From a virus: a stretch of DNA of 64,000 nucleotides. The notes beneath the pieces are model-generated. The model had not been told where the DNA came from, ran no database searches, and saw only the letters and a program-made list of their open reading frames with translations. Position numbers and translations under genes: made by a program. Shown here piece by piece: positions 1 through 59,214 of the stretch. Numbering within the stretch: position 1 is the stretch's first letter; each line of letters opens with the position of its first letter. The stretch spans positions 1-64,000 of the IMG/VR virus record IMGVR_UViG_3300023179_008905; one strand, 5' to 3'.

Positions 1-366
1 CCTGGAGTTAAATTTATTAAAGAGTGGATGCCGATATTTGTAGAGCTACCTGATGAAATAACTGTTGAAAAGGGTGATCTTTATGATTCGCCTGAATTAA
101 GAAATGAAGTTATTGAAGCGATAACCCGTGCGTTTGATGCTAACATGGCAAAAGATAAAGAGCTTGTAAATGATTTTATAGACTCATTAAAATATAAAAA
201 CAGCTATTCGCACTCGAGTGAGAAAAAAGAAGGTGAAGGTACAGGTGAAGAGCCTAACATTGAAGAATATCCTGAAGACGATGATGTAACAGGGGAGCTA
301 AGATCTATGGGTGCAATTGGCGGCCGTCGTGGTTATGACGCGGGTGGTTTTAGTTACGGGGACTAA
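1..366 (+). CDS. C-terminal part of an unidentified phage protein (truncated by window start)
   Basis: The reading frame is open from base 1 to a TAA at 364-366, so the ATG at 28 is probably internal and the gene begins outside the window. The visible part has a mixed helix-forming region, then a strongly acidic low-complexity stretch (about residues 65-90 counted from the Met at 28), and ends in a Gly/Arg/Tyr-rich tail. Its 3' end overlaps queC by 17 bp in convergent orientation. I do not recognise the family. An acidic tail occurs in ssDNA-binding proteins and many virion proteins, but nothing here decides the function. Confidence 0.6.
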   Translation, partial: PGVKFIKEWMPIFVELPDEITVEKGDLYDSPELRNEVIEAITRAFDANMAKDKELVNDFIDSLKYKNSYSHSSEKKEGEGTGEEPNIEEYPEDDDVTGELRSMGAIGGRRGYDAGGFSYGD

Positions 367-1099
367 TCTCTTTACACTTAAACTTTTCCCAAGGTATTGA
401 AATTTTATACTTTAAAGGGTCTATAACCCTCGAATCTATAAAGCCTTTTATTCTCAAAGAGCACGCAGTACATTCACCGCATGCTTGCTCTTCTCCCTCA
501 TAACAAGTCCAGGTTTGACTAAAATTAACCCCGAGCTTTATACCGAGTTTTACAATCTCTTCTTTAGATTTATCAATTAAAGGGGCTTGAACTACAATTC
601 TATTTCTTCTGTTAAGAGCGGATACTTTATTGATTTGTTCGAGAAATTCTTCACTACCATCCCAAAACCCAGCAACGCTATCGGCTTGGGCAGCTCCATG
701 AAAAACTGTGCTAGCACCGTAGTTTTCTGCTATAGCAAGTGAGATACTGAGTAACATTAAGTTTCTATACGGAACATAGTTAACTGTCTGCGGATCCCCC
801 ATTACATCCTTTGCCTTAGCAACTGCAATTTTGTTATTTAGAAGTGAAGAGACCTGACATATATCTCTAAAAAACGGTAATTTTATGTGTAAACTATCGA
901 CCGGCATATCAAGCGTTTCAATCTGAAATGAAGCGCAGTTTACTTCTTTATCACGGTGCTTTTGACCGTAGTCGTAGTTAACCGTAATTATTTTATCATA
1001 CCTACTAGCGGCTAAATGTAGTAGGACGGTACTGTCCATTCCCCCAGAAATGGGGACTACAGCTTTACTCGTGAGGCTCTTCTTCGCCTTGCACTTCAT
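350..1099 (-). CDS. queC: 7-cyano-7-deazaguanine (preQ0) synthase QueC
   Basis: QueC converts 7-carboxy-7-deazaguanine to preQ0 using ATP and ammonia. The N-terminus carries the PP-loop ATP pyrophosphatase motif SGGMDST (about residues 18-24). The C-terminal third has the zinc-binding cysteines in CYEGEEQACGECTAC. The length of 249 aa is near the family norm of about 220-240. The gene overlaps the end of uvsX by 35 bp, so it is probably co-transcribed and perhaps translationally coupled with it. The other pathway genes (folE, queD, queE, queF) and a DpdA-type transglycosylase are elsewhere in the window, which points to DNA modification rather than tRNA queuosine. Family assignment is firm; the DNA role is inferred. 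Confidence 0.95.
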   Translation of the reverse strand: MKCKAKKSLTSKAVVPISGGMDSTVLLHLAASRYDKIITVNYDYGQKHRDKEVNCASFQIETLDMPVDSLHIKLPFFRDICQVSSLLNNKIAVAKAKDVMGDPQTVNYVPYRNLMLLSISLAIAENYGASTVFHGAAQADSVAGFWDGSEEFLEQINKVSALNRRNRIVVQAPLIDKSKEEIVKLGIKLGVNFSQTWTCYEGEEQACGECTACSLRIKGFIDSRVIDPLKYKISIPWEKFKCKEISPRN

Positions 1100-5270: not shown

Positions 5271-5418
5271 TAGCAGAGCTTATAGCTGCTATAAGACTAG
5301 TAAACGTTCTTAGTAGCTCTAATTTATGATTGTGCTTATCTACCCAGATCTCAACATGATCGCGAAGGCGTCCTTCTTTCTCTAATTTTTTTATTTCTTT
5401 TTTAGAGAGCTTTCTCAT
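5239..5418 (-). CDS. small single-pass membrane protein
   Basis: A 59-aa reading frame that begins with ATGA overlapping the stop of the upstream glycosyltransferase gene and ends inside the 5' end of gene 43. The first half is highly charged (KKEIKKLEKEGRLRDHVE). The second half is a hydrophobic segment (TSLIAAISSAIVLFKIVL) suited to one membrane helix. Tight packing between two real genes and the ATGA junction support it as a gene. Function is unknown. Its translation could help ribosomes reach the TTG start of the polymerase. Confidence 0.6.
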   Translation of the reverse strand: MRKLSKKEIKKLEKEGRLRDHVEIWVDKHNHKLELLRTFTSLIAAISSAIVLFKIVLHF

Positions 5419-6638
5419 GCAATAATTCCGTTTAAGGCATTCAAGAGCTTCCTATCCTTGTGTGCATATGGTAGCGTATAGAGTTCTTGATACGCGCCAA
5501 TATTAGAGTCATTTTCTAACCATCTGCTTTCCGCTACTTTTCTAAACTTTGCACACATATTCATATATTTACCCTTCTTGTCTAATGTCTCTTCTATACA
5601 CGCTAACATTTCTTCACCTGTTTTAAATTTAATTGGTGCATTAGAATAGGTAACTAAATCTTGACAAGCGATTGGCAGACCAAAGCAACATGCTTCTATA
5701 TATTTTAAGTCGCTTTTAGCTTTGTTAAAAGTATTATCTTGTAACGGGGCAACCATCATATTAATCTGTAAGTTAGAAATCTTTTCTGGGTAAGAATAAA
5801 GATGCTGCCAAGGATGAAACTCTAGATCACCGTTTTGTACATAGGGATGTAATGGTAGAGGAAACGCTCCTAAAAATACCCAGCGATACTTTTGACGAGT
5901 CTTAACGATAGCCTCAATTACGTGCTCGAAATCATCTTTCTGACCAACACGGTTTTCAACATCAAAATGCGCACCAGATCCTGCATAAAGAATGCGCGGT
6001 CTTGCTCTATGCGTATCATAATTTTCTGAAATACGTCTCTCGTTATAAAAATTACCAATCCACCACTTTGGAGGAAAATTAGGGATAACTGTTATATTTT
6101 TATTCTTAATCTTGCTAGAATAGTAATCCTTCATAAAGTCACAGGTAACTGTGATTTCATCGCAAGTCTCCATAATTTTTTGTGCGGTGTTTCTAATTTC
6201 TGGATCAGCAAAAGCAGGCTTAAATTTATTATACTCAGGAATATCTTCTATAAAAACCAAATCATCAACTTCATAAATTAGTTTAAACCCGATCTTTTGG
6301 CTTAGTTCCTTTAAAAATTCTATAAATTTTAATTGATGTGGTGTTGCTTGGCGCTGTACGCGTACTGTCTTCACCCCGCGAAAATAGTTAGGATCAAAAC
6401 ACATTACAGTACTGCCGTGAATAACTAGCTTTTGATGGGCATTAAGAAAATGTTCAGGCCAAATCATTCTCCAGAATCCACAGCCACTATAATCTGCATA
6501 ATAATTTAAGCATCTCTGTAAGTCTAATTCAGGTGGTCGGGGAGAAGTATTTGCTGCGGGAAGTTGAGCTGTAGGAAAAGGCGATGCAAAAGGAGAGACA
6601 AAAGGTGAAGGCGATACAAAGGGAGAAGGGGTAAACAT
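5415..6638 (-). CDS. GT-B type glycosyltransferase with proline-rich N-terminus
   Basis: A 407-aa protein with features of group 1 (GT-B) glycosyltransferases. It has a donor-domain segment RPRILYAGSG near residue 215 and a C-terminal nucleotide-sugar region (LKYIEACCFGLPIACQDLVTY). The first 35 residues are a repetitive Ser/Pro/Phe tract (SPFVSPSPFVSPF), probably disordered. It lies between genes 43 and 46, the broad genomic neighbourhood of the alpha-glucosyltransferase gene in T4, so DNA glycosylation is possible. It could equally modify a protein or a surface sugar. The family call is good; the substrate is unknown. Confidence 0.75.
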   Translation of the reverse strand: MFTPSPFVSPSPFVSPFASPFPTAQLPAANTSPRPPELDLQRCLNYYADYSGCGFWRMIWPEHFLNAHQKLVIHGSTVMCFDPNYFRGVKTVRVQRQATPHQLKFIEFLKELSQKIGFKLIYEVDDLVFIEDIPEYNKFKPAFADPEIRNTAQKIMETCDEITVTCDFMKDYYSSKIKNKNITVIPNFPPKWWIGNFYNERRISENYDTHRARPRILYAGSGAHFDVENRVGQKDDFEHVIEAIVKTRQKYRWVFLGAFPLPLHPYVQNGDLEFHPWQHLYSYPEKISNLQINMMVAPLQDNTFNKAKSDLKYIEACCFGLPIACQDLVTYSNAPIKFKTGEEMLACIEETLDKKGKYMNMCAKFRKVAESRWLENDSNIGAYQELYTLPYAHKDRKLLNALNGIIA

Positions 6639-20065: not shown

Positions 20066-20719
20066 TTAGATCAATTTTCTATTTTGTGCAAATTCAATAA
20101 ACTTATAAAACTCGTTTCTTGAGTTATCCTTATCATCTAAGAAAGCACCAGACATTCTAGCTGTACGCATGGTAGAATCATGTCTAATACCACGATTCGA
20201 ACAACAGGTATGAGCTGCTTCAATCATTACAGCTACACCCTTATTCTTTAAGCATACCTCATCAATATATTTGTGAATTTGCATTGTTAGGTTTTCTTGA
20301 ACTTGAGGGCGACGGGCAAACCAATCAACAATACGATTTAGCTTACTTAAACCAATAACCTTACCGTCTTTAGCAGGAATATAAGCAACATGCGCAAACC
20401 CCATAAAGGGCGCATGATGATGAGAGCAAAGAGATGTTAATTTAATATTTGTTTGTGCGACTATACCGTCATACTTATCTACATTATCGAATGCAGTAAC
20501 TTTAGGAGGAGTGCTATAACAGCCCCATGCAAAATCTTCAACAAAAGCCTTTGCTACCCGGTGTGGTGTATTATCACTATTTGGATCGTTTCTCCAATCA
20601 TAACCTAAAGCATCCATGTACGCTTCGTACGCTTTAGCTGCTCGTTCTATAATTTGTTCTCTTTCTTCTTGAGTATGAGGGTGATTGTGATTTGCAAAAG
20701 CTAATTTCTTTTTAAACAT
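20066..20719 (-). CDS. folE: GTP cyclohydrolase I FolE
   Basis: FolE converts GTP to dihydroneopterin triphosphate, the first step of both folate and 7-deazaguanine synthesis. Conserved segments are NTPHRVAKAF (near residue 50), TSLCSHHHAPF with zinc-binding Cys and His (near 97), GLSKLNRIVDWFARRPQVQE (near 125) and HTCCSNRGI (near 170). The 217-aa length is typical. With queD, queE, queC and queF in the same window, it most likely feeds base modification. It has its own sigma70-like promoter. Confidence 0.96.
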   Translation of the reverse strand: MFKKKLAFANHNHPHTQEEREQIIERAAKAYEAYMDALGYDWRNDPNSDNTPHRVAKAFVEDFAWGCYSTPPKVTAFDNVDKYDGIVAQTNIKLTSLCSHHHAPFMGFAHVAYIPAKDGKVIGLSKLNRIVDWFARRPQVQENLTMQIHKYIDEVCLKNKGVAVMIEAAHTCCSNRGIRHDSTMRTARMSGAFLDDKDNSRNEFYKFIEFAQNRKLI

Positions 20720-24036: not shown

Positions 24037-24750
24037 ATGAGATATAAAAGTACTAAGATCTTAGAATTAGGTAGTTGTGCATTTAGACAATGGAGAGCTG
24101 TACATAGTCATTGTAAGTTTATTCATGGCTATAGATTAGTTGCTAAGTTTTGGTTTAGTTGTGATTCTTTAGATGATAAGAATTGGGTAGTAGATTTTGG
24201 AGGGTTAGATGAACTTAAGAAAATTTTACAAAAACAATTTGATCATACATTATGTGTTTCAGAAGATGATCCTTTGTTAGAAGGATTTAAATCATTACAT
24301 ACTGCTGGTGGTTGTGATTTAAGAATTATGCCTAAGGGAGTAGGTATTGAAAGGACAGCTGAATGGTGTTTAAATGTTTCTGATGCGCATGTAAGACAGT
24401 TAACAAATAATCGTTGTTGGGTTGAAAAAGTTGAAGTATGGGAACATGAAAAAAATTCAGCTATAGCAATTGCAGAAAATATTAATCATAATCATGTTAA
24501 TTTGAGCAATGCATTTAATGTTACAAATAATGTTACAACTGGTAATTCTGAAACTGTTGCAACAACATTGCAACCACCTATTAATCAGGTAAGAACGTTT
24601 TTAGACGACGTACAGCAAGAAACCGGTGTTAATGTTGCTAATGTTTTAAAACAAGTTCCTCAGCAGCAAGTACCGAGACCAGCTAATGTAGGTAATAAGA
24701 CGTCTTCAGGTTTTTCGAATTTATTTGGCGGTACAAGCTGGGGAATGTAA
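24037..24750 (+). CDS. queD: 6-carboxytetrahydropterin synthase QueD, long C-terminal tail
   Basis: QueD turns dihydroneopterin triphosphate into 6-carboxytetrahydropterin. The N-terminal 135 residues show HSHCKFIHGYR (residues 23-33, with the catalytic-type Cys), NWVVDFGGL (near 49), FDHTLCV (near 68) and a GIERTAEWC segment (near 107). The usual HGH zinc motif reads HGY; a second His in HSH may compensate. Residues 150-237 are an extra Asn/Thr/Gln-rich tail ending in a Gly/Ser/Phe-rich piece, absent from ordinary QueD (about 120-140 aa). It lies near queE and has its own promoter. Confidence 0.88.
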   Translation: MRYKSTKILELGSCAFRQWRAVHSHCKFIHGYRLVAKFWFSCDSLDDKNWVVDFGGLDELKKILQKQFDHTLCVSEDDPLLEGFKSLHTAGGCDLRIMPKGVGIERTAEWCLNVSDAHVRQLTNNRCWVEKVEVWEHEKNSAIAIAENINHNHVNLSNAFNVTNNVTTGNSETVATTLQPPINQVRTFLDDVQQETGVNVANVLKQVPQQQVPRPANVGNKTSSGFSNLFGGTSWGM

Positions 24751-25542: not shown

Positions 25543-26286
25543 ATGAGTGATTCGTATATTTTTTTAAGTGACGATAAGTTATTTTATACTCTAGAAGGTG
25601 AAGGTGAGTATGTAGGATATCCTTCTGTTTTTATGCGTTTATCAATGTGTAATTTAACGTGTAAAGGATTTGCTTCATCTGATTCACCTCACGGTTGCGA
25701 TAGTTTTGTCAGCTGGTCAGTAAAAAACAGAATGACGTTTGATGAGGTGTTTGAATATATGGCACAAAATAGTTATAACTGCCATTTAAAAGATGGTGCT
25801 ATATGGAAAATTACTGGTGGCGAACCACTTATTCAACAAAAAACATTATTAGAGCTTGTTGATCAATTTATTTTCCGCTTTGGGTTTGTACCGAGAATAG
25901 ACTTTGAAACAAATGCTACAATTATACCTGACCATCAGTGGGTAGATTGGAAAGCAACATTTACAACTTCACCTAAGCTTTCAAACAACGGAGATCCGAT
26001 TGAAAAGAGATATAAGCCTGAAGTATTAAAATGGCATGTAAAACATAATTCGGGCTTTAAATTTGTTATTAATAATGAAAACGATTTTAATGAAGTTTTA
26101 GAAAAATATATACTTGAGCCGAATATTAAAGTTCCCCGGGAAAGAGTATGGTTAATGCCTTGTTGTGGTAGTAGAGAAGAGCATATTGAAAAGGCGTCTG
26201 TTATTGCCGAGTTATGTAAAAAACATAAGCTTAAATTTAGTCCAAGATTACAACTTGTTATTTGGAATAAAGCTCTTAAAGTATAA
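25543..26286 (+). CDS. queE: 7-carboxy-7-deazaguanine synthase QueE (radical SAM), variant cluster motif
   Basis: QueE is the radical SAM enzyme that makes the 7-deazaguanine ring. TLEGEGEYVGYPSVFMRL (residues 16-33) is typical of the family, as are ITGGEPLIQQ (near 89) and FETNAT (near 123). The cysteines near residues 36-52 read C-NLT-C, then 11 residues, then C. That is CX3CX11C rather than the classic CX3CX2C. The start is the ATG behind a good promoter. The gene is followed after one base by a P-loop kinase. Identity is firm; the cluster geometry is unusual. Confidence 0.92.
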   Translation: MSDSYIFLSDDKLFYTLEGEGEYVGYPSVFMRLSMCNLTCKGFASSDSPHGCDSFVSWSVKNRMTFDEVFEYMAQNSYNCHLKDGAIWKITGGEPLIQQKTLLELVDQFIFRFGFVPRIDFETNATIIPDHQWVDWKATFTTSPKLSNNGDPIEKRYKPEVLKWHVKHNSGFKFVINNENDFNEVLEKYILEPNIKVPRERVWLMPCCGSREEHIEKASVIAELCKKHKLKFSPRLQLVIWNKALKV

Positions 26287-26287
26287 T

Positions 26288-27025
26288 ATGAGAATAGCTA
26301 TTTCCGGTAGCGCATGTCAGGGTAAATCTACATTAGTTAAAGATTTTTTAAAAAATTGGCCCCAGTATAAAAGATCTGAAGAATCATATAGAAAGCTAAT
26401 AAAGAAAGAAAAAATTAATATTAATAAAAAAGTTGATCAAGATGGCCAATGGAAAATTTTAAATTGTCTTATAGATGATATACAAAAAACGGAAAAGGGT
26501 GACAAGGTAATTTTTGATAGATGTCCGCTAGATAATATTATCTATTCTTTATGGGCAGAAGAAAAAGGTACTTCTGATATTGATAGAGATTTTATTAAAA
26601 AATGTATACCTTTAGTACAGGAGAGTATGAAATCTATTGATATTATTTTCTTTTTACCTATTACAAAAGTTGCACCGGTACCTATAGAAGATAGACCTGA
26701 TCGCGAAATTGATAAAGTTTTTATTGAAGAAGTAGATCATATCTTTAAAGCTGTTTCTCATGCTTTGGCACAAAAAGGCATATGCCCTTTTATGGCTTCA
26801 GATGACAGGCCTCCAATTATTGAAGTATTTGGAACACCAGAGGAGCGTATTGAGATTATAAAACTTTATTTGGATGAAAAAGGTGATGTAATAACTGATT
26901 CTACTAGTGTATTAGATCCTGAAAATATTAATAATATGGAAACCATACTAAGAGCACAAGAGAAAGCACTTAGTGATGAAAAATACGAGCAAAAAATAAA
27001 AAAGAATATAATACTCGGACAATAA
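26288..27025 (+). CDS. P-loop nucleotide kinase-like protein (AAA_28 type)
   Basis: A 245-aa protein with Walker A GSACQGKST at residues 6-14, FDRCPLDNIIY (kinase-type DR motif, near 79) and IIFFLPIT (near 121), like NadR or thymidylate-kinase-type enzymes. The ATG at 26288 is chosen because the frame further upstream lies inside queE. It is one base from queE and so co-transcribed. A paralogue at 55716 sits next to queF, so both may act on nucleotides of the deazaguanine pathway. Substrate unknown. Confidence 0.75.
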   Translation: MRIAISGSACQGKSTLVKDFLKNWPQYKRSEESYRKLIKKEKININKKVDQDGQWKILNCLIDDIQKTEKGDKVIFDRCPLDNIIYSLWAEEKGTSDIDRDFIKKCIPLVQESMKSIDIIFFLPITKVAPVPIEDRPDREIDKVFIEEVDHIFKAVSHALAQKGICPFMASDDRPPIIEVFGTPEERIEIIKLYLDEKGDVITDSTSVLDPENINNMETILRAQEKALSDEKYEQKIKKNIILGQ

Positions 27026-54820: not shown

Positions 54821-55735
54821 TTACTGTCTTACCGTCTTAGTAAAATACTTAAACTCGTCTATTAAAGCCGTATCTAATAAGCTATAGTTACTAGCTCTTG
54901 TTGGATTAATATCGATACCACCACGTCTTACATATAGACAACTTACTACAAGCTCTTCTGGTTTAAACAATCTAAACAACCGCATATAAATTGTCTCACA
55001 AATCTCTTCATGAAAATGACATTCATCTCTAAATGAGACAATATACTGTAAAAGAGATGTCTGATTAATCTCATACTTTCCTTTATAATGAATATAAACA
55101 TCGCCCCAATCAGGTTGTGAAGTTACCCTACAATTACTTTTTAATAAAGCAGAATGAAATCTTTGTACTCTAGATTCAGGGATCTTTATTGCAGATAAAA
55201 TAGAAGGATCCTCAGTATATGATTTAGATTGTATCATTGTAACATCAATATTATTTTCTAATGTAGGGTAGTCTTTATTCGAAAACACCGGGGGATAATA
55301 CAAATCATCCGATACTGCTGCAGCAGATCTTACATAGACCTTCACATCTGTTTCCAAAAGATTAGATAGATCTCTTGCAATTGTATTTTGCAATTCATTT
55401 AAAACTTGAATCATATTACCTTTAAATACTTGCATGTTAAAAGAATTCATATATAGCTTAATAGATTTTGATTCAACTATATAATGGTTTTTACAAGGAT
55501 AAACAATTTTAGCTATAGCGGCTATAGGCATTCCTTCTGCAGTCAGGCACGATACTTCATATGCATTCCAAATATCATAACCACCAAACGGGGCGTTTTC
55601 ATCAGTTATATCTAAATGCTTTCTATTATTAATTCTTGGTTCACGGACTAACAGAGAAGGGTCGTAAGTCGACTTATAACCAGTTACCTTACCTAAATGC
55701 TTTGAAATGTTACTATTATCTAATACCTTGTTCAT
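54821..55735 (-). CDS. queF: NADPH-dependent preQ0 reductase QueF
   Basis: QueF reduces preQ0 to preQ1. It is the long (E. coli-like) form. ESKSIKLYMNSFN lies in the N-terminal half (near residue 86), the catalytic Cys is in LKSNCRVTSQPDWGD (near 202), and FHEEICETIY and YVRRGGIDINPTR follow (near 240-285). I chose the ATG at 55735, which overlaps the kinase stop by 20 bp; an ATG at 55771 is also in frame. QueF implies that preQ1, not only preQ0, is made. It is the last gene of the dpdA operon. Confidence 0.93.
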   Translation of the reverse strand: MNKVLDNSNISKHLGKVTGYKSTYDPSLLVREPRINNRKHLDITDENAPFGGYDIWNAYEVSCLTAEGMPIAAIAKIVYPCKNHYIVESKSIKLYMNSFNMQVFKGNMIQVLNELQNTIARDLSNLLETDVKVYVRSAAAVSDDLYYPPVFSNKDYPTLENNIDVTMIQSKSYTEDPSILSAIKIPESRVQRFHSALLKSNCRVTSQPDWGDVYIHYKGKYEINQTSLLQYIVSFRDECHFHEEICETIYMRLFRLFKPEELVVSCLYVRRGGIDINPTRASNYSLLDTALIDEFKYFTKTVRQ

Positions 55736-56300
55736 GTAGTTTAATTTTAATCTGTTCCATTCGTTCTTCAACTGTTCCTTTTAAAAACACTACTCTTTCT
55801 CTCCATGGGTGTTGATTAAGATAATAATTTTCATACTTATCGATAATTGCATCTCTAAACTCTATATCAATACTCCTCTCACCATCGCTAACTAAATTAA
55901 TCTCATGAGGATTCGGATAAAATATAATATCATACTTAGTAAAAAAATTATGCCAATAATTTTTCGCTTGATCGTATGATAATCTTGAAACCCGTCCCTT
56001 TTCAAAAAAGTATTCTGTATACACTAACCCATCTAGTAAACATCTATCATGTACAGTACCCTTACACCATCCACCCATACTACCGCATGTAAACAAATTC
56101 TTTAGTTCCTCGTTTATTATTAAAAGCTGTGTTACATCACTTGCACCCTCTTCATTAATCGGTACGTTACATTCATCTCTTATTTTCCTAGTAACTTCGT
56201 TAATATAAAAGAATTTATCAAATATACCTCCACTGCTTCTCATTGTCTTAAGCAATGTCGTTTTACCAGAGCACTGAGGACCTGTAAACGTAATATTCAT
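55716..56300 (-). CDS. P-loop nucleotide kinase-like protein (AAA_28 type)
   Basis: A 194-aa protein with Walker A GPQCSGKTT at residues 6-14 and a kinase-type VHDRCLLDGLVYTEYFF (near 88). It resembles NadR- or thymidylate-kinase-like enzymes and the 26288 protein next to queE. ATGA links it to the small upstream gene. It may phosphorylate a nucleoside related to the base modification; substrate unknown. Confidence 0.75.
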   Translation of the reverse strand: MNITFTGPQCSGKTTLLKTMRSSGGIFDKFFYINEVTRKIRDECNVPINEEGASDVTQLLIINEELKNLFTCGSMGGWCKGTVHDRCLLDGLVYTEYFFEKGRVSRLSYDQAKNYWHNFFTKYDIIFYPNPHEINLVSDGERSIDIEFRDAIIDKYENYYLNQHPWRERVVFLKGTVEERMEQIKIKLHEQGIR

Positions 56301-56449
56301 TTCTTATTCCAATCAACACCAAATAAAAGATTTTTTAATATCTTTATTTCTTCTAAAAATACTTTATTTTCTTGCTCAAGCTCAGCCAAAAGAATCTTCA
56401 ATCTCTTGACTTCATCATTCTTTTTTCGAAAAATATCTAATAAAGACAT
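56297..56449 (-). CDS. 50-aa coiled-coil protein
   Basis: A small frame from ATG 56449 to TGA 56297, the stop overlapping the kinase ATG (ATGA). The sequence is a single heptad-like helix (VKRLKILLAELEQENKVF), ending GVDWNKK. Coupled position inside the dpdA operon supports it. It may help assemble a complex; function unknown. Confidence 0.5.
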   Translation of the reverse strand: MSLLDIFRKKNDEVKRLKILLAELEQENKVFLEEIKILKNLLFGVDWNKK

Positions 56450-56484
56450 ACTATAGTATAAATGACTTTTTATTATTAATCAAG

Positions 56485-56832
56485 CTATTTACACCACTTT
56501 TTTCTTTTCACAATTTCAGCAATTATACAGTATACCGATGTATCACTAAATGCATCAAAGATAGGCTCATTAGCAGATTCAAACGTCTTCTTACGCAATA
56601 CTAAATTAATTAAACGCTGAATTTTATCGTTAAGTCGAACTACGATTGCAGAAATAGAGGCAATAATATCTTCTTTCTTGTGTAAATCAGATCCCAGGCT
56701 TATGTTGTGCGGCCCGTAATCAAATTGCTTCTTACAGAATGTTTCGTATTGCTCTTTTTGAATCTTTTTAAATTCCTCGCAAGTCTCAGGATACGTAGAC
56801 TCTACACTTTTAATATAATCTTCCGGGTTCAA
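56485..56832 (-). CDS. DUF1599-like (nucleotide modification associated) protein
   Basis: A 115-aa helical protein with the pattern FCKKQFDYGPHNISLG (near residue 32), then VVRLNDKIQRLINLV (near 64) and FDAFSDTSVYCIIAEIV near the end. It matches DUF1599, a family noted near nucleotide-modification genes. Its stop is 35 bases before the next gene, and its start overlaps the GMP reductase end by 4 bp. Confidence 0.72.
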   Translation of the reverse strand: MNPEDYIKSVESTYPETCEEFKKIQKEQYETFCKKQFDYGPHNISLGSDLHKKEDIIASISAIVVRLNDKIQRLINLVLRKKTFESANEPIFDAFSDTSVYCIIAEIVKRKKWCK

Positions 56833-57800
56833 ATTCTTACTCCGTAACCAATCTTATTTAAATTAAGAGCATTTAAATTGCAACCCCCAGCATAGCTGAT
56901 TGCGCTCTGAAGATCTTGAGTTATTTCTAATAGCTTTTCATCGTAAGTAAATGAATCGGTTTCCATAAGCTTCATTGTACCTTCTATGTTCTTTTTATCA
57001 ATCTTATTATGTATACTAGCAGAACCGTAATACTGTTTATACCGTCTCCCGTTAGTATCTTTTACAACCGGTGCAGGGCTATCCGTACAAGCAGCAAATA
57101 TAGATCCGCACATAACCATACTAGCCCCAGCGACTAGCGCTTTAGCTATATCACCGTTGCAGCGAACTCCACCGTCTGCAATAATAGGTACATCAATATC
57201 TGAATTATAATTATTTGCACACTCCATAACGCAGCTAAACATAGGATATGTAAACCCGGTTTTGTCTTTAGTAGTACATGCATGACCACCACCGATACCA
57301 ACTTTAACTGCATCAGCACCTGCAAGGGCAAGATATTCAACACCTTTACGTGTAGCTACATTACCAGCTATTATCTTTGTTTCAGGTAGTTTATTTTTAA
57401 TAAACTTTACTTGGTCAGCAACTTTAGCATGATGCCCATGAGCCACATCAATTGTAATAAAATTTACTCTTAATTTATGTCGAGATATATTGTCAATTAA
57501 CGCTTTATCTTTTTCCTGTATCCCTACACTTATAGATACATAATTGAAAAAAGCTTCATTTGCATCTCTTACAAACGCAAAAATATCGTGATCAAACCGA
57601 TGCATAACATAAAAGTAATATTTCGAATCTAACGCTTGACAAATATCAAAATCTATGCAGCATTTCATATTTGCTGGGATAACTGGAAGACGAAAATTTT
57701 TATCTAAAAACTTTACCTCTGTACTAATTTCTGCCCTCGTCTTAACCGAATTAAAATTAGGCTTAAGAAAAACGTTTTCGTAATGCAGAGAAATGTCCAT
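56829..57800 (-). CDS. guaC: GMP reductase (GuaC-like)
   Basis: A 323-aa TIM-barrel protein without CBS domains. VKVGIGGGHACTTKDKTGFTYP (near residue 165) holds the active-site Cys. IIADGGVRCNGDIAKALVAGA (near 208) and YYGSASIHNKIDKKNIEG (near 255), then a final DLQSAISYAGG, match Bacillus-type GuaC better than IMP dehydrogenase. The enzyme turns GMP into IMP. In this operon it might recycle guanine displaced by DpdA into adenine nucleotides; that is my inference. Confidence 0.85.
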   Translation of the reverse strand: MDISLHYENVFLKPNFNSVKTRAEISTEVKFLDKNFRLPVIPANMKCCIDFDICQALDSKYYFYVMHRFDHDIFAFVRDANEAFFNYVSISVGIQEKDKALIDNISRHKLRVNFITIDVAHGHHAKVADQVKFIKNKLPETKIIAGNVATRKGVEYLALAGADAVKVGIGGGHACTTKDKTGFTYPMFSCVMECANNYNSDIDVPIIADGGVRCNGDIAKALVAGASMVMCGSIFAACTDSPAPVVKDTNGRRYKQYYGSASIHNKIDKKNIEGTMKLMETDSFTYDEKLLEITQDLQSAISYAGGCNLNALNLNKIGYGVRI

Positions 57801-57801
57801 A

Positions 57802-58371
57802 CTAGCGATTTAAAATATTATATGCTTTAAAAAAGCTTTTCCACAAATCAAATGCAACGTCATGTAAAATATTATAGACTTCATTTAATGTTTTACTCTC
57901 TATCGATACCCCTTGACTCATCATAATTTCACCCTCATCAACTTCAGGCACTACTTTATGAATAACGCAACCAGCTAATTTATAGCCATTTACAAACGCT
58001 CTCTCCTGAGGATTAAACCCTTTTAGAGACGGGTACTTGTCAATAAGCCCGGGGTGTAGATTATATATTTCATATTTTTCACATATTTCTTTTGGAACAA
58101 TACGTAAATAGCCGTGTAAAGTTATAACTGGATTTTTAAATTTAGATAATACTTCTGTATAATCTTCTAAAGAAGGTTTTAGAGGTAACATATACCATAT
58201 AGTTTGATTGAGTTTATGCTCTCTAAAAGTAGTTGTACGAAGCAAATCTTTATTTACATTATCCGTTGTAATTTTATTAGTAACGATAGCATCAGGATAA
58301 ACTTCTAAGGCTTTACAGAGATTATTAATTTCTGTACCGGTCTGTGAAAAAAACGCTACCCAAGGTCTCAT
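57802..58371 (-). CDS. formyltransferase-fold protein, candidate 7-deazaguanine formyltransferase
   Basis: A 189-aa protein of the PurN/Fmt formyltransferase fold. VITLHGYLRIVPKEICEKYEIYNLHPGLIDKYPS (near residues 82-115) contains the Asn-x-His-Pro active-site motif NLHPG, and AGCVIHKVVPEVDEGEIM (near 133) is also conserved. It overlaps dpdA by 4 bp. A formyltransferase (called DpdN, as I recall) has been linked to 7-(formylamino)methyl-7-deazaguanine in phage DNA. Its position next to dpdA and queF makes that role likely here. Confidence 0.82.
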   Translation of the reverse strand: MRPWVAFFSQTGTEINNLCKALEVYPDAIVTNKITTDNVNKDLLRTTTFREHKLNQTIWYMLPLKPSLEDYTEVLSKFKNPVITLHGYLRIVPKEICEKYEIYNLHPGLIDKYPSLKGFNPQERAFVNGYKLAGCVIHKVVPEVDEGEIMMSQGVSIESKTLNEVYNILHDVAFDLWKSFFKAYNILNR

Positions 58372-59180
58372 CTATATAAAATGCGCTTAAACATTTTAAC
58401 ATTATAATTTAAAATTTCCAATTGATCTGGTGTAAATTGATGCTCTATTAAATCTGCTAATTTTGTCTTAGGTTTAGTCTGTAGACCGTATTCTGCATCA
58501 TAACGCATATTATGAATAGCTGCGACTACAGGGTTACTCGTATCACAACTTACAATATTATATACATTTTTATCAACATAAAATCTAAACTCTTTTGCAA
58601 GAGAGCAGCCTAATAAATGATGAGGCTTATTCCATTCCCATAACCCTGATTCAATTAAATCTGTAATAAATCTCTGTCGTCCTGAACAAAACCTTTCTAG
58701 CTCAGTATTACCCTCACCTATTGTTTGATAATAACTAAAATCAAAACTTATAGCTACCATGTCAGCATCAAATGACATAAAACGATAACAGTTTTTTAAT
58801 TCTTGCCATGTCTTACCCTGTACTGCTCCAATAGCTTTAGTCTGAAATGATGATTTTAAATCCTTAGCTTTATCTCTAAAGCTTAAAAAACTCACCATCG
58901 TTTCTTGCGAATTTTCCAAAACATCTGGAACAATAAACATACTAGGCTCAAGATCTTTTGCGGCTTGATAAAACATTTGCGGATCAAAAGCTTTTCCAAG
59001 CTCAAATATTGAATTATCGAGCAATACTTCTCTGTTATATGTATTTTTGGAGGCTTTAAAAAAATTATAATATTCTGGATATTTTTGAAAAAGATGAACT
59101 AATGCATAGTCAAAATCATTATATTTTCTTGATTGTTCTAATAATGAAATAGGAGATTCATGAGATACTTTCAATAGCAT
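58368..59180 (-). CDS. dpdA: DpdA-like DNA guanine transglycosylase
   Basis: A 270-aa protein of the tRNA-guanine transglycosylase superfamily in its DNA-acting DpdA form. It has VLLDNSIFELGKAF (near residue 51, the substrate-pocket Asp), GAVQGKTWQEL (near 118), HLLGCSLAKEFRFY (near 187) and VSCDTSNPVVAAIHN (near 205, the candidate nucleophile Asp). DpdA exchanges guanine in DNA for preQ0-type bases. It leads the modification operon behind a strong promoter. Whether it accepts preQ0, preQ1 or both is not visible. Confidence 0.85.
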   Translation of the reverse strand: MLLKVSHESPISLLEQSRKYNDFDYALVHLFQKYPEYYNFFKASKNTYNREVLLDNSIFELGKAFDPQMFYQAAKDLEPSMFIVPDVLENSQETMVSFLSFRDKAKDLKSSFQTKAIGAVQGKTWQELKNCYRFMSFDADMVAISFDFSYYQTIGEGNTELERFCSGRQRFITDLIESGLWEWNKPHHLLGCSLAKEFRFYVDKNVYNIVSCDTSNPVVAAIHNMRYDAEYGLQTKPKTKLADLIEHQFTPDQLEILNYNVKMFKRILYR

Positions 59181-59186
59181 AATTAT

Positions 59187-59214
59187 ATTATAAATGTAAA
59201 TAATACTATATCAA
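59187..59214 (-). promoter_or_regulatory. sigma70-like promoter of the dpdA operon
   Basis: Minus-strand TTGATA (59214-59209), 16 bp, TATAAT (59192-59187), six bases before the dpdA start. It is back to back with the gp5 late box on the other strand. Confidence 0.6.
59195..59202 (+). promoter_or_regulatory. late promoter box TGTAAATA
   Basis: A weaker box, 14 nt before the gp5-like ATG at 59216, leaving a short leader. Confidence 0.4.

Follow-up and report, generated by a model that had tools for sequence, protein, structure and literature searches.

In the DNA of Campylobacter firehammerviruses, a 7-deazaguanine derivative takes the place of all deoxyguanosine (dG) (PMC10273834), the base being named dADG for CP220 and CPt10 (PMC8306585), and Hutinet 2019 listed those phages as being without the transglycosylase DpdA (PMC6884629). 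Some phages thus reach complete replacement of guanine, whereas other DpdA phages modify just a few percent of it or, at most, about 30%. Here we analyse a window of 64,000 nucleotides, the first 64 kb of the 76-kb IMG/VR virus record IMGVR_UViG_3300023179_008905, with T4-like gene content (gp46/47-like SbcC/SbcD, UvsY and baseplate genes). Its minus strand holds, at 54821–59180, a cassette of six genes: dpdA, a formyltransferase gene, a GMP reductase gene, o115 (for a 115-aa DUF1599-like protein), a kinase gene and queF. The reading that we prefer, and consider probable, is that this DpdA3-type cassette serves to substitute 7-(formylamino)methyl-7-deazaguanine (fdPreQ1) for guanine in the DNA of the phage itself, probably at all positions or most of them. 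From the genes, their families, the fold and catalytic residues of their products and their conserved linkage, we infer the chemical product and the completeness of replacement. At the DNA level, the 54–64 kb region had no match among phage records (the phage-record searches below covered 50,697 records).

The transglycosylase and the predicted base

The transglycosylase gene (58368–59180, minus strand) encodes a 270-aa protein of a short type, which we take to be DpdA3, a name reportedly given by Cui et al. 2023. No Pfam model matched it above cut-off (DUF6610, 19 bits versus 27), and a PDB sequence search with its profile gave nothing meaningful. When its AlphaFold2 model (mean predicted local distance difference test (pLDDT) score 91.8) was searched with Foldseek, the top matches (E about 1e-8) were all tRNA-guanine transglycosylases (TGT), among them 2pot (1.0e-8), with query template-modelling scores of 0.63–0.70 among the matches listed; these include 2nqz, a structure with preQ1 bound. 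The modelled fold is that of TGT. Residues D55-N56-S57, D86, Q121-G122, G191 and D213-T-S-N-P are invariant in 23 relatives, including those of CP220 and of the Flavobacterium phage vB_FspM_immuto_2-6A (immuto), and their equivalence to TGT active-site and base-recognition residues was assigned by motif. Among the phage records, relatives were confined to 18 Campylobacter and immuto records and the Chryseobacterium phage MA9V-3; the protein is 45–47% identical to those of the CP220 group of firehammerviruses and 43% to that of immuto (41–47% over the alignments). By sequence, it groups with the short transglycosylases of the firehammerviruses, in which all dG is replaced, and of immuto, a link to complete guanine replacement that an earlier note on this DNA did not recognize, and exchange of guanine by this enzyme is predicted. 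MA9V-3 has a more distant relative (L055 7980–8774; 25%), with queD, queE and folE nearby.

The earlier note had proposed a full 7-deazaguanine pathway with its own operon. All six genes that it named were recovered where it had placed them, with matches far above chance, and the route from GTP to preQ1 is complete, with the transglycosylase in addition. Four enzymes would lead from GTP to 7-cyano-7-deazaguanine (preQ0): FolE, GTP cyclohydrolase I (20066–20719, minus strand; Pfam 5.6e-49, PHROG 3.6e-61), a QueD-like 6-carboxytetrahydropterin synthase (24037–24750, plus strand; PTPS 9.8e-15, PHROG QueD 5.3e-35), a QueE-like radical SAM 7-carboxy-7-deazaguanine synthase (25543–26286, plus strand; PHROG QueE 1.4e-42) and the preQ0 synthase QueC (350–1099, minus strand; Pfam 4.5e-56, TIGR00364 above cut-off). 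The 304-aa bimodular QueF (54821–55735, minus strand; QueF_N 2.4e-34, QueF 2.7e-22) would then reduce preQ0 to preQ1. It aligns with the reductase structure PDB 3bp1 (1.1e-49), retains the catalytic Cys/Asp and His-Glu, and scores 266 bits against NCBIfam TIGR03138, under the cut-off of 293; its sequence is of the preQ0 nitrile reductase type, not of the QueF-L amidinotransferase type. The operon claim stands for dpdA and queF, but the cassette holds only two of the six genes, because folE, queD, queE and queC are scattered over 350–26286 on both strands. In QueD, HGY stands where the canonical sequence is HGH (a zinc ligand), a change shared with immuto and MA9V-3, and the C terminus is extended by about 90 residues; the iron–sulfur motif of QueE is stretched (C-x3-C-x11-C), as is that of immuto QueE.

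Directly after dpdA, and overlapping it by 4 bases, lies a gene for a 189-aa PurN-like formyltransferase (57802–58371, minus strand; Formyl_trans_N 1.6e-16), predicted to be DpdN-like. N104, H106 and D145, the PurN N-x-H...D residues, are invariant in 24 relatives. Among the phage records, relatives with at least 80% coverage were found in four immuto records only, at 46% identity. The immuto formyltransferase in the equivalent position is presumably DpdN and the immuto base fdPreQ1, both names reportedly given by Cui et al. 2023. Because the enzyme matches this same-position gene, the predicted base is 7-(formylamino)methyl-7-deazaguanine rather than plain preQ1: once the short TGT-fold DpdA had exchanged guanine for preQ1, the PurN-like enzyme would add a formyl group from formyl-tetrahydrofolate to the aminomethyl group of preQ1. 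The earlier note's 'preQ1-type DNA' is therefore right in that preQ1 is reached, but incomplete.

An end product of plain dPreQ1, with the formyltransferase a PurN relative that belongs to purine biosynthesis and has nothing to do with the DNA base, seems unlikely to us. The closest families of the enzyme by sequence are indeed PurN enzymes, and some cassettes lack it; those relatives (DpdA–kinase–QueF) are predicted to make plain dPreQ1. Against this stand its score far under the PurN cut-off (57 bits versus 150), its overlap with dpdA and its fixed position, between dpdA and the kinase gene in 61 of 71 DpdA clusters (98% identity). Four further loci (L202, L204, L205 and L207) have formyltransferase, kinase and QueF in order, with no DpdA relative in the stretch covered.

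Restriction sites were also compared. G-containing 6-base palindromes are not depleted in the window genome (864 observed versus 788 expected; ratio 1.10), and the same ratio is 1.01 in immuto, 1.06 in CP21 and 1.03–1.04 in pooled cassette loci, versus 0.73 in FCL-2, 0.94 (slight depletion) in phi38:1 and 0.69 in phage 9g; FCL-2 and phi38:1 are Bacteroidota phages without DpdA3. The undepleted palindromes agree with a well protected genome. Four-base palindromes do not cleanly separate carriers from controls. A glycosyltransferase-like gene beside the DNA polymerase gene (5415–6638, minus strand; phrog_7162 1.3e-20) is a separate candidate for DNA decoration.

Several points weigh against fdPreQ1 replacement. 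The substrate of the formyltransferase is not fixed by homology, because its nearest phage relative is only 46% identical; the chemistry of the cassette is predicted from its genes; the palindrome comparison has three control phages only; the window is part of a larger fragment; and QueF and queuosine enzymes can serve tRNA too. On this last ground, the pathway might feed queuosine precursors to host tRNA, with the DpdA-like protein acting on tRNA. QueF and preQ1 do feed the bacterial tRNA pathway, and Hutinet 2019 discusses such a role for phages without a recognized DpdA (PMC6884629). The closest relatives of this DpdA, however, sit in phages with fully replaced dG, and no queA or queG was noticed in the window, in which no systematic search for them was made; we regard the tRNA reading as very improbable. 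A scan of the window for tRNA genes and with Rfam found nothing.

Nucleotide-metabolism genes in the cassette

Four cassette genes were overlooked by the earlier note, those for the formyltransferase, GMP reductase, DUF1599-like protein and kinase, and the last three are the most informative evidence at this locus. The GMP reductase and o115 genes overlap by 4 bases and the kinase gene and queF by 20 bases; the 184-base gap between o115 and the kinase gene contains a short open reading frame (ORF; 56317–56451, minus strand), coiled-coil-like by eye, and a family of 60-aa ORFs sits between o115 and the kinase gene in some relatives. Just upstream of dpdA is a promoter-like site (TTGATA-16-TATAAT; 59187–59214, minus strand) with 11 of 12 consensus matches, which is weak evidence; the number of promoter-like sites around dpdA was not above that in shuffles.

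The cassette is found again in dozens of IMG/VR loci, which were retrieved through similarity to window proteins, so that the set is biased towards close relatives and its counts are not independent of one another. Of 560 confirmed DpdA candidates in IMG/VR, the best 80 were kept. Clustering of the DpdA proteins at 75% identity, with at least 5 kb required downstream, gave 30 lineages. Within 5 kb downstream of DpdA, the kinase was present in 29 of these, queF in 28, the formyltransferase in 24, o115 in 16 and GMP reductase in 5. There are four main orders, DpdA-Kin-QueF, DpdA-FT-Kin-QueF, DpdA-FT-o115-Kin-QueF and DpdA-FT-GuaC-o115-Kin-QueF (Kin, kinase; FT, formyltransferase; GuaC, GMP reductase). 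The last, the exact order of the window, occurs in 22 of the 71 DpdA clusters, and 28 more differ solely in having no guaC downstream; several other loci carry GuaC some 3 kb upstream.

The kinase (55716–56300, minus strand; 194 aa) is a P-loop (d)NMP or nucleoside kinase (AAA_28 2e-12), and its alignment with Aquifex thymidylate kinase 2pbr (1.7e-5) runs over the full length. Only the MA9V-3 lineage lacks this kinase family; there, an AAA_18 P-loop kinase-like gene sits immediately upstream of dpdA. The family was found in 21 of the phage records, all from Campylobacter or immuto phages. One of them, CC_R7, has the kinase without a DpdA match and carries QueE and GTP cyclohydrolase I (PMC12398825); the remaining kinase-only records are second segments of vB_CcoM-IBB_35. 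A second AAA_28/deoxynucleoside-kinase-like gene lies 3' of queE in the window (26165–27025, plus strand; AAA_28 1.4e-9, dNK 2.6e-4) and was recovered by a hidden Markov model (HMM) of the cassette kinase; these coordinates are those of its longest ORF, and the true start is probably downstream. Two kinase paralogues also occur in several Campylobacter DpdA phages.

The GMP reductase (56829–57800, minus strand; 323 aa) is of GuaC type 2 (NCBIfam 1e-97, just under cut-off), and its alignment to PDB 1ypf (4e-71) covers the catalytic Cys-Thr-Thr and Glu. Phosphoribosyltransferase genes, which could salvage released guanine, lie beside queE/folE in immuto (L003 3843–4238) and beside radical SAM genes in CP21 (L288 17993–18406).

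The product of o115 (56485–56832, minus strand) is all-helical, resembles DUF1599/nucleotide modification associated domain 1 and is a predicted dNTP pyrophosphohydrolase; phrog_1485 matched in 24 of 24 relatives. One relative (L280) passes the DUF1599 cut-off (32.2 versus 25 bits) and several others match below it. No Pfam model matched o115 itself, and because the DUF1599 HMM had no match in the window genome, the assignment rests on relatives. The structural model has four long helices (pLDDT 82); Foldseek of this model against the PDB found nothing significant and a PDB search with the o115 profile nothing meaningful, so the pyrophosphohydrolase role is proposed from the family name and the slot that the gene occupies. 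Loci that lack o115 often have a PF18909 dATP/dGTP diphosphohydrolase (8.3e-22) in this slot ahead of the kinase gene: of 63 kinase clusters (90% identity), 40 have o115, 6 have PF18909 and none has both. Profile comparisons of o115 with PF18909 and with the PRA-PH protein of immuto gave no significant match, and homology among the alternative occupants is therefore not claimed. In the Microcystis phage Mel-JY01 (L054), o115-like and GMP reductase-like genes lie about 3.5 kb apart, with no DpdA relative in the 16 kb covered. In the window, the kinase, DUF1599-like protein and GMP reductase would act as dedicated partners in adjusting the pool of guanine nucleotides, the substrate of each being predicted.

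Exchange in the nucleotide pool or in finished DNA

That DpdA travels with the kinase and usually with a nucleotide-cleaving enzyme is a hint that the swap may precede DNA copying. In this sharper version of the preferred reading, guanine would be swapped on dGMP in the nucleotide pool and the product then polymerized, a serious possibility to which we give somewhat less than an even chance. The DUF1599-like or PF18909 enzyme would turn dGTP into dGMP, DpdA3 would swap its guanine for preQ1, the PurN-like enzyme would formylate the resulting 5'-phosphate, the dedicated kinase would make the diphosphate and host nucleoside diphosphate kinase the triphosphate for incorporation by the phage polymerase, and GMP reductase would remove salvaged guanine as inosine monophosphate. 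The natural substrate of PurN, glycinamide ribonucleotide, is a 5'-phosphoribosyl compound with a primary amine, and dPreQ1 monophosphate would resemble it in combining a 5'-phosphate with a primary amine. The gene partners argue for this order of events, since a dGTP diphosphohydrolase runs counter to a phage's need for dGTP, and since the kinase of these phages has no clear role if the substrates are only free bases and DNA. The near-constant presence of the kinase, the P-loop gene beside the exceptional MA9V-3 DpdA, the restriction of kinase relatives to nearly the DpdA set and a diphosphohydrolase slot never doubly filled (with the PRA-PH gene in immuto) all favour it, as does phage 9g, in whose 50 kb searched neither the kinase nor o115, PF18909 or the formyltransferase had a relative. 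There are direct precedents in Z-phages, where PF18909 (DUF5664) turns dGTP into dGMP and dAMP is the substrate for base exchange by DmtZ (PMC12884076), and where MazZ makes dGMP in S-2L (PMC8342488).

Set against exchange on dGMP are the presence of PF18909 in many phages without DpdA, and the failure of o115 to match a PDB structure or the PF18909 profile. In infected Campylobacter, Crippen (2019) reportedly saw dITP but no phosphates of dADG, Cui (2023) is said to have concluded that insertion is post-replicative, and we know of no TGT-fold enzyme that acts on a mononucleotide. A review has DpdA acting on the DNA polymer (PMC12707154). Conventional post-replicative modification, in which DpdA3 would exchange guanine in duplex DNA, has in our estimate about an even chance; the formyltransferase would then have free preQ1 or the dPreQ1 of DNA as its substrate, and general purine supply would be the only role of the kinase, diphosphohydrolase and GMP reductase. 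The DpdA fold is that of TGT, polymers are the substrates of TGT and of other DpdA enzymes (PMC6884629; PMC12707154), and the cassette adjoins ribonucleotide reductase genes in this phage lineage. Post-replicative modification does not account for the near-restriction of the kinase to DpdA3 phages, or for a dGTP diphosphohydrolase being retained in this slot of the operon by a phage that needs dGTP to replicate. Net charge (−1 to −18 in DpdA3 proteins, −8 in 9g DpdA) does not separate the substrates. A third answer, that the exchange takes place at neither of the two levels, seems unlikely to us. For DpdA3 enzymes as a class, we advance only tentatively the proposal that they are not post-replicative and instead exchange the base on dGMP, with a dedicated diphosphohydrolase before and a kinase after them, so that guanine-free DNA, here formylated, is polymerized. 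The genes for the conserved kinase and for the dNTP diphosphohydrolases that stand in for one another are named candidates with which to decide between the pool and finished DNA, and exchange on dGMP by a TGT-fold enzyme, if true, would be a novel reaction and would open a way to triphosphates of dG analogues.

Comparison with described systems

The closest described cassette is that of immuto, which shares the order dpdA–formyltransferase–kinase–queF at 31–48% protein identity and has queD, queE and folE 1–4 kb upstream. Unlike the window, immuto has no GMP reductase gene adjoining the cassette and no DUF1599-like gene, and its PRA-PH (MazG-clan) gene lies upstream of dpdA, at a distance of two genes. 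In the firehammerviruses CP220 and CP21, dpdA is likewise followed directly by a gene of the same kinase family, but neither a formyltransferase gene nor queF lies beside it, a gene for an HD-domain plus P-loop protein precedes it, and the base is dADG. Phage 9g, whose DNA is partially replaced (dG+), has the FolE, QueD, QueE and QueC pathway in common with the window; the LDS/LDN and SCDSS/SCDTS motifs of its DpdA correspond by eye, and profile comparison of DpdA3 with 9g DpdA gave no overall match.

The Z-genome pathway of S-2L, Wayne and Ghobes (MazZ/DUF5664, DmtZ and PurZ) differs in that adenine is replaced, DmtZ has the NDT fold rather than the TGT fold, and no PurZ was noticed in the window. 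It is similar in the PF18909 dNTP diphosphohydrolase found in cassettes of the window's relatives and in base exchange as a possible step. By analogy, the cassette resembles the pool-level base replacement of T4 and Z-phages: the linkage of kinase and slot genes to DpdA is clear, and the putative diphosphohydrolase role of o115 in the window is proposed by analogy of slot and family.

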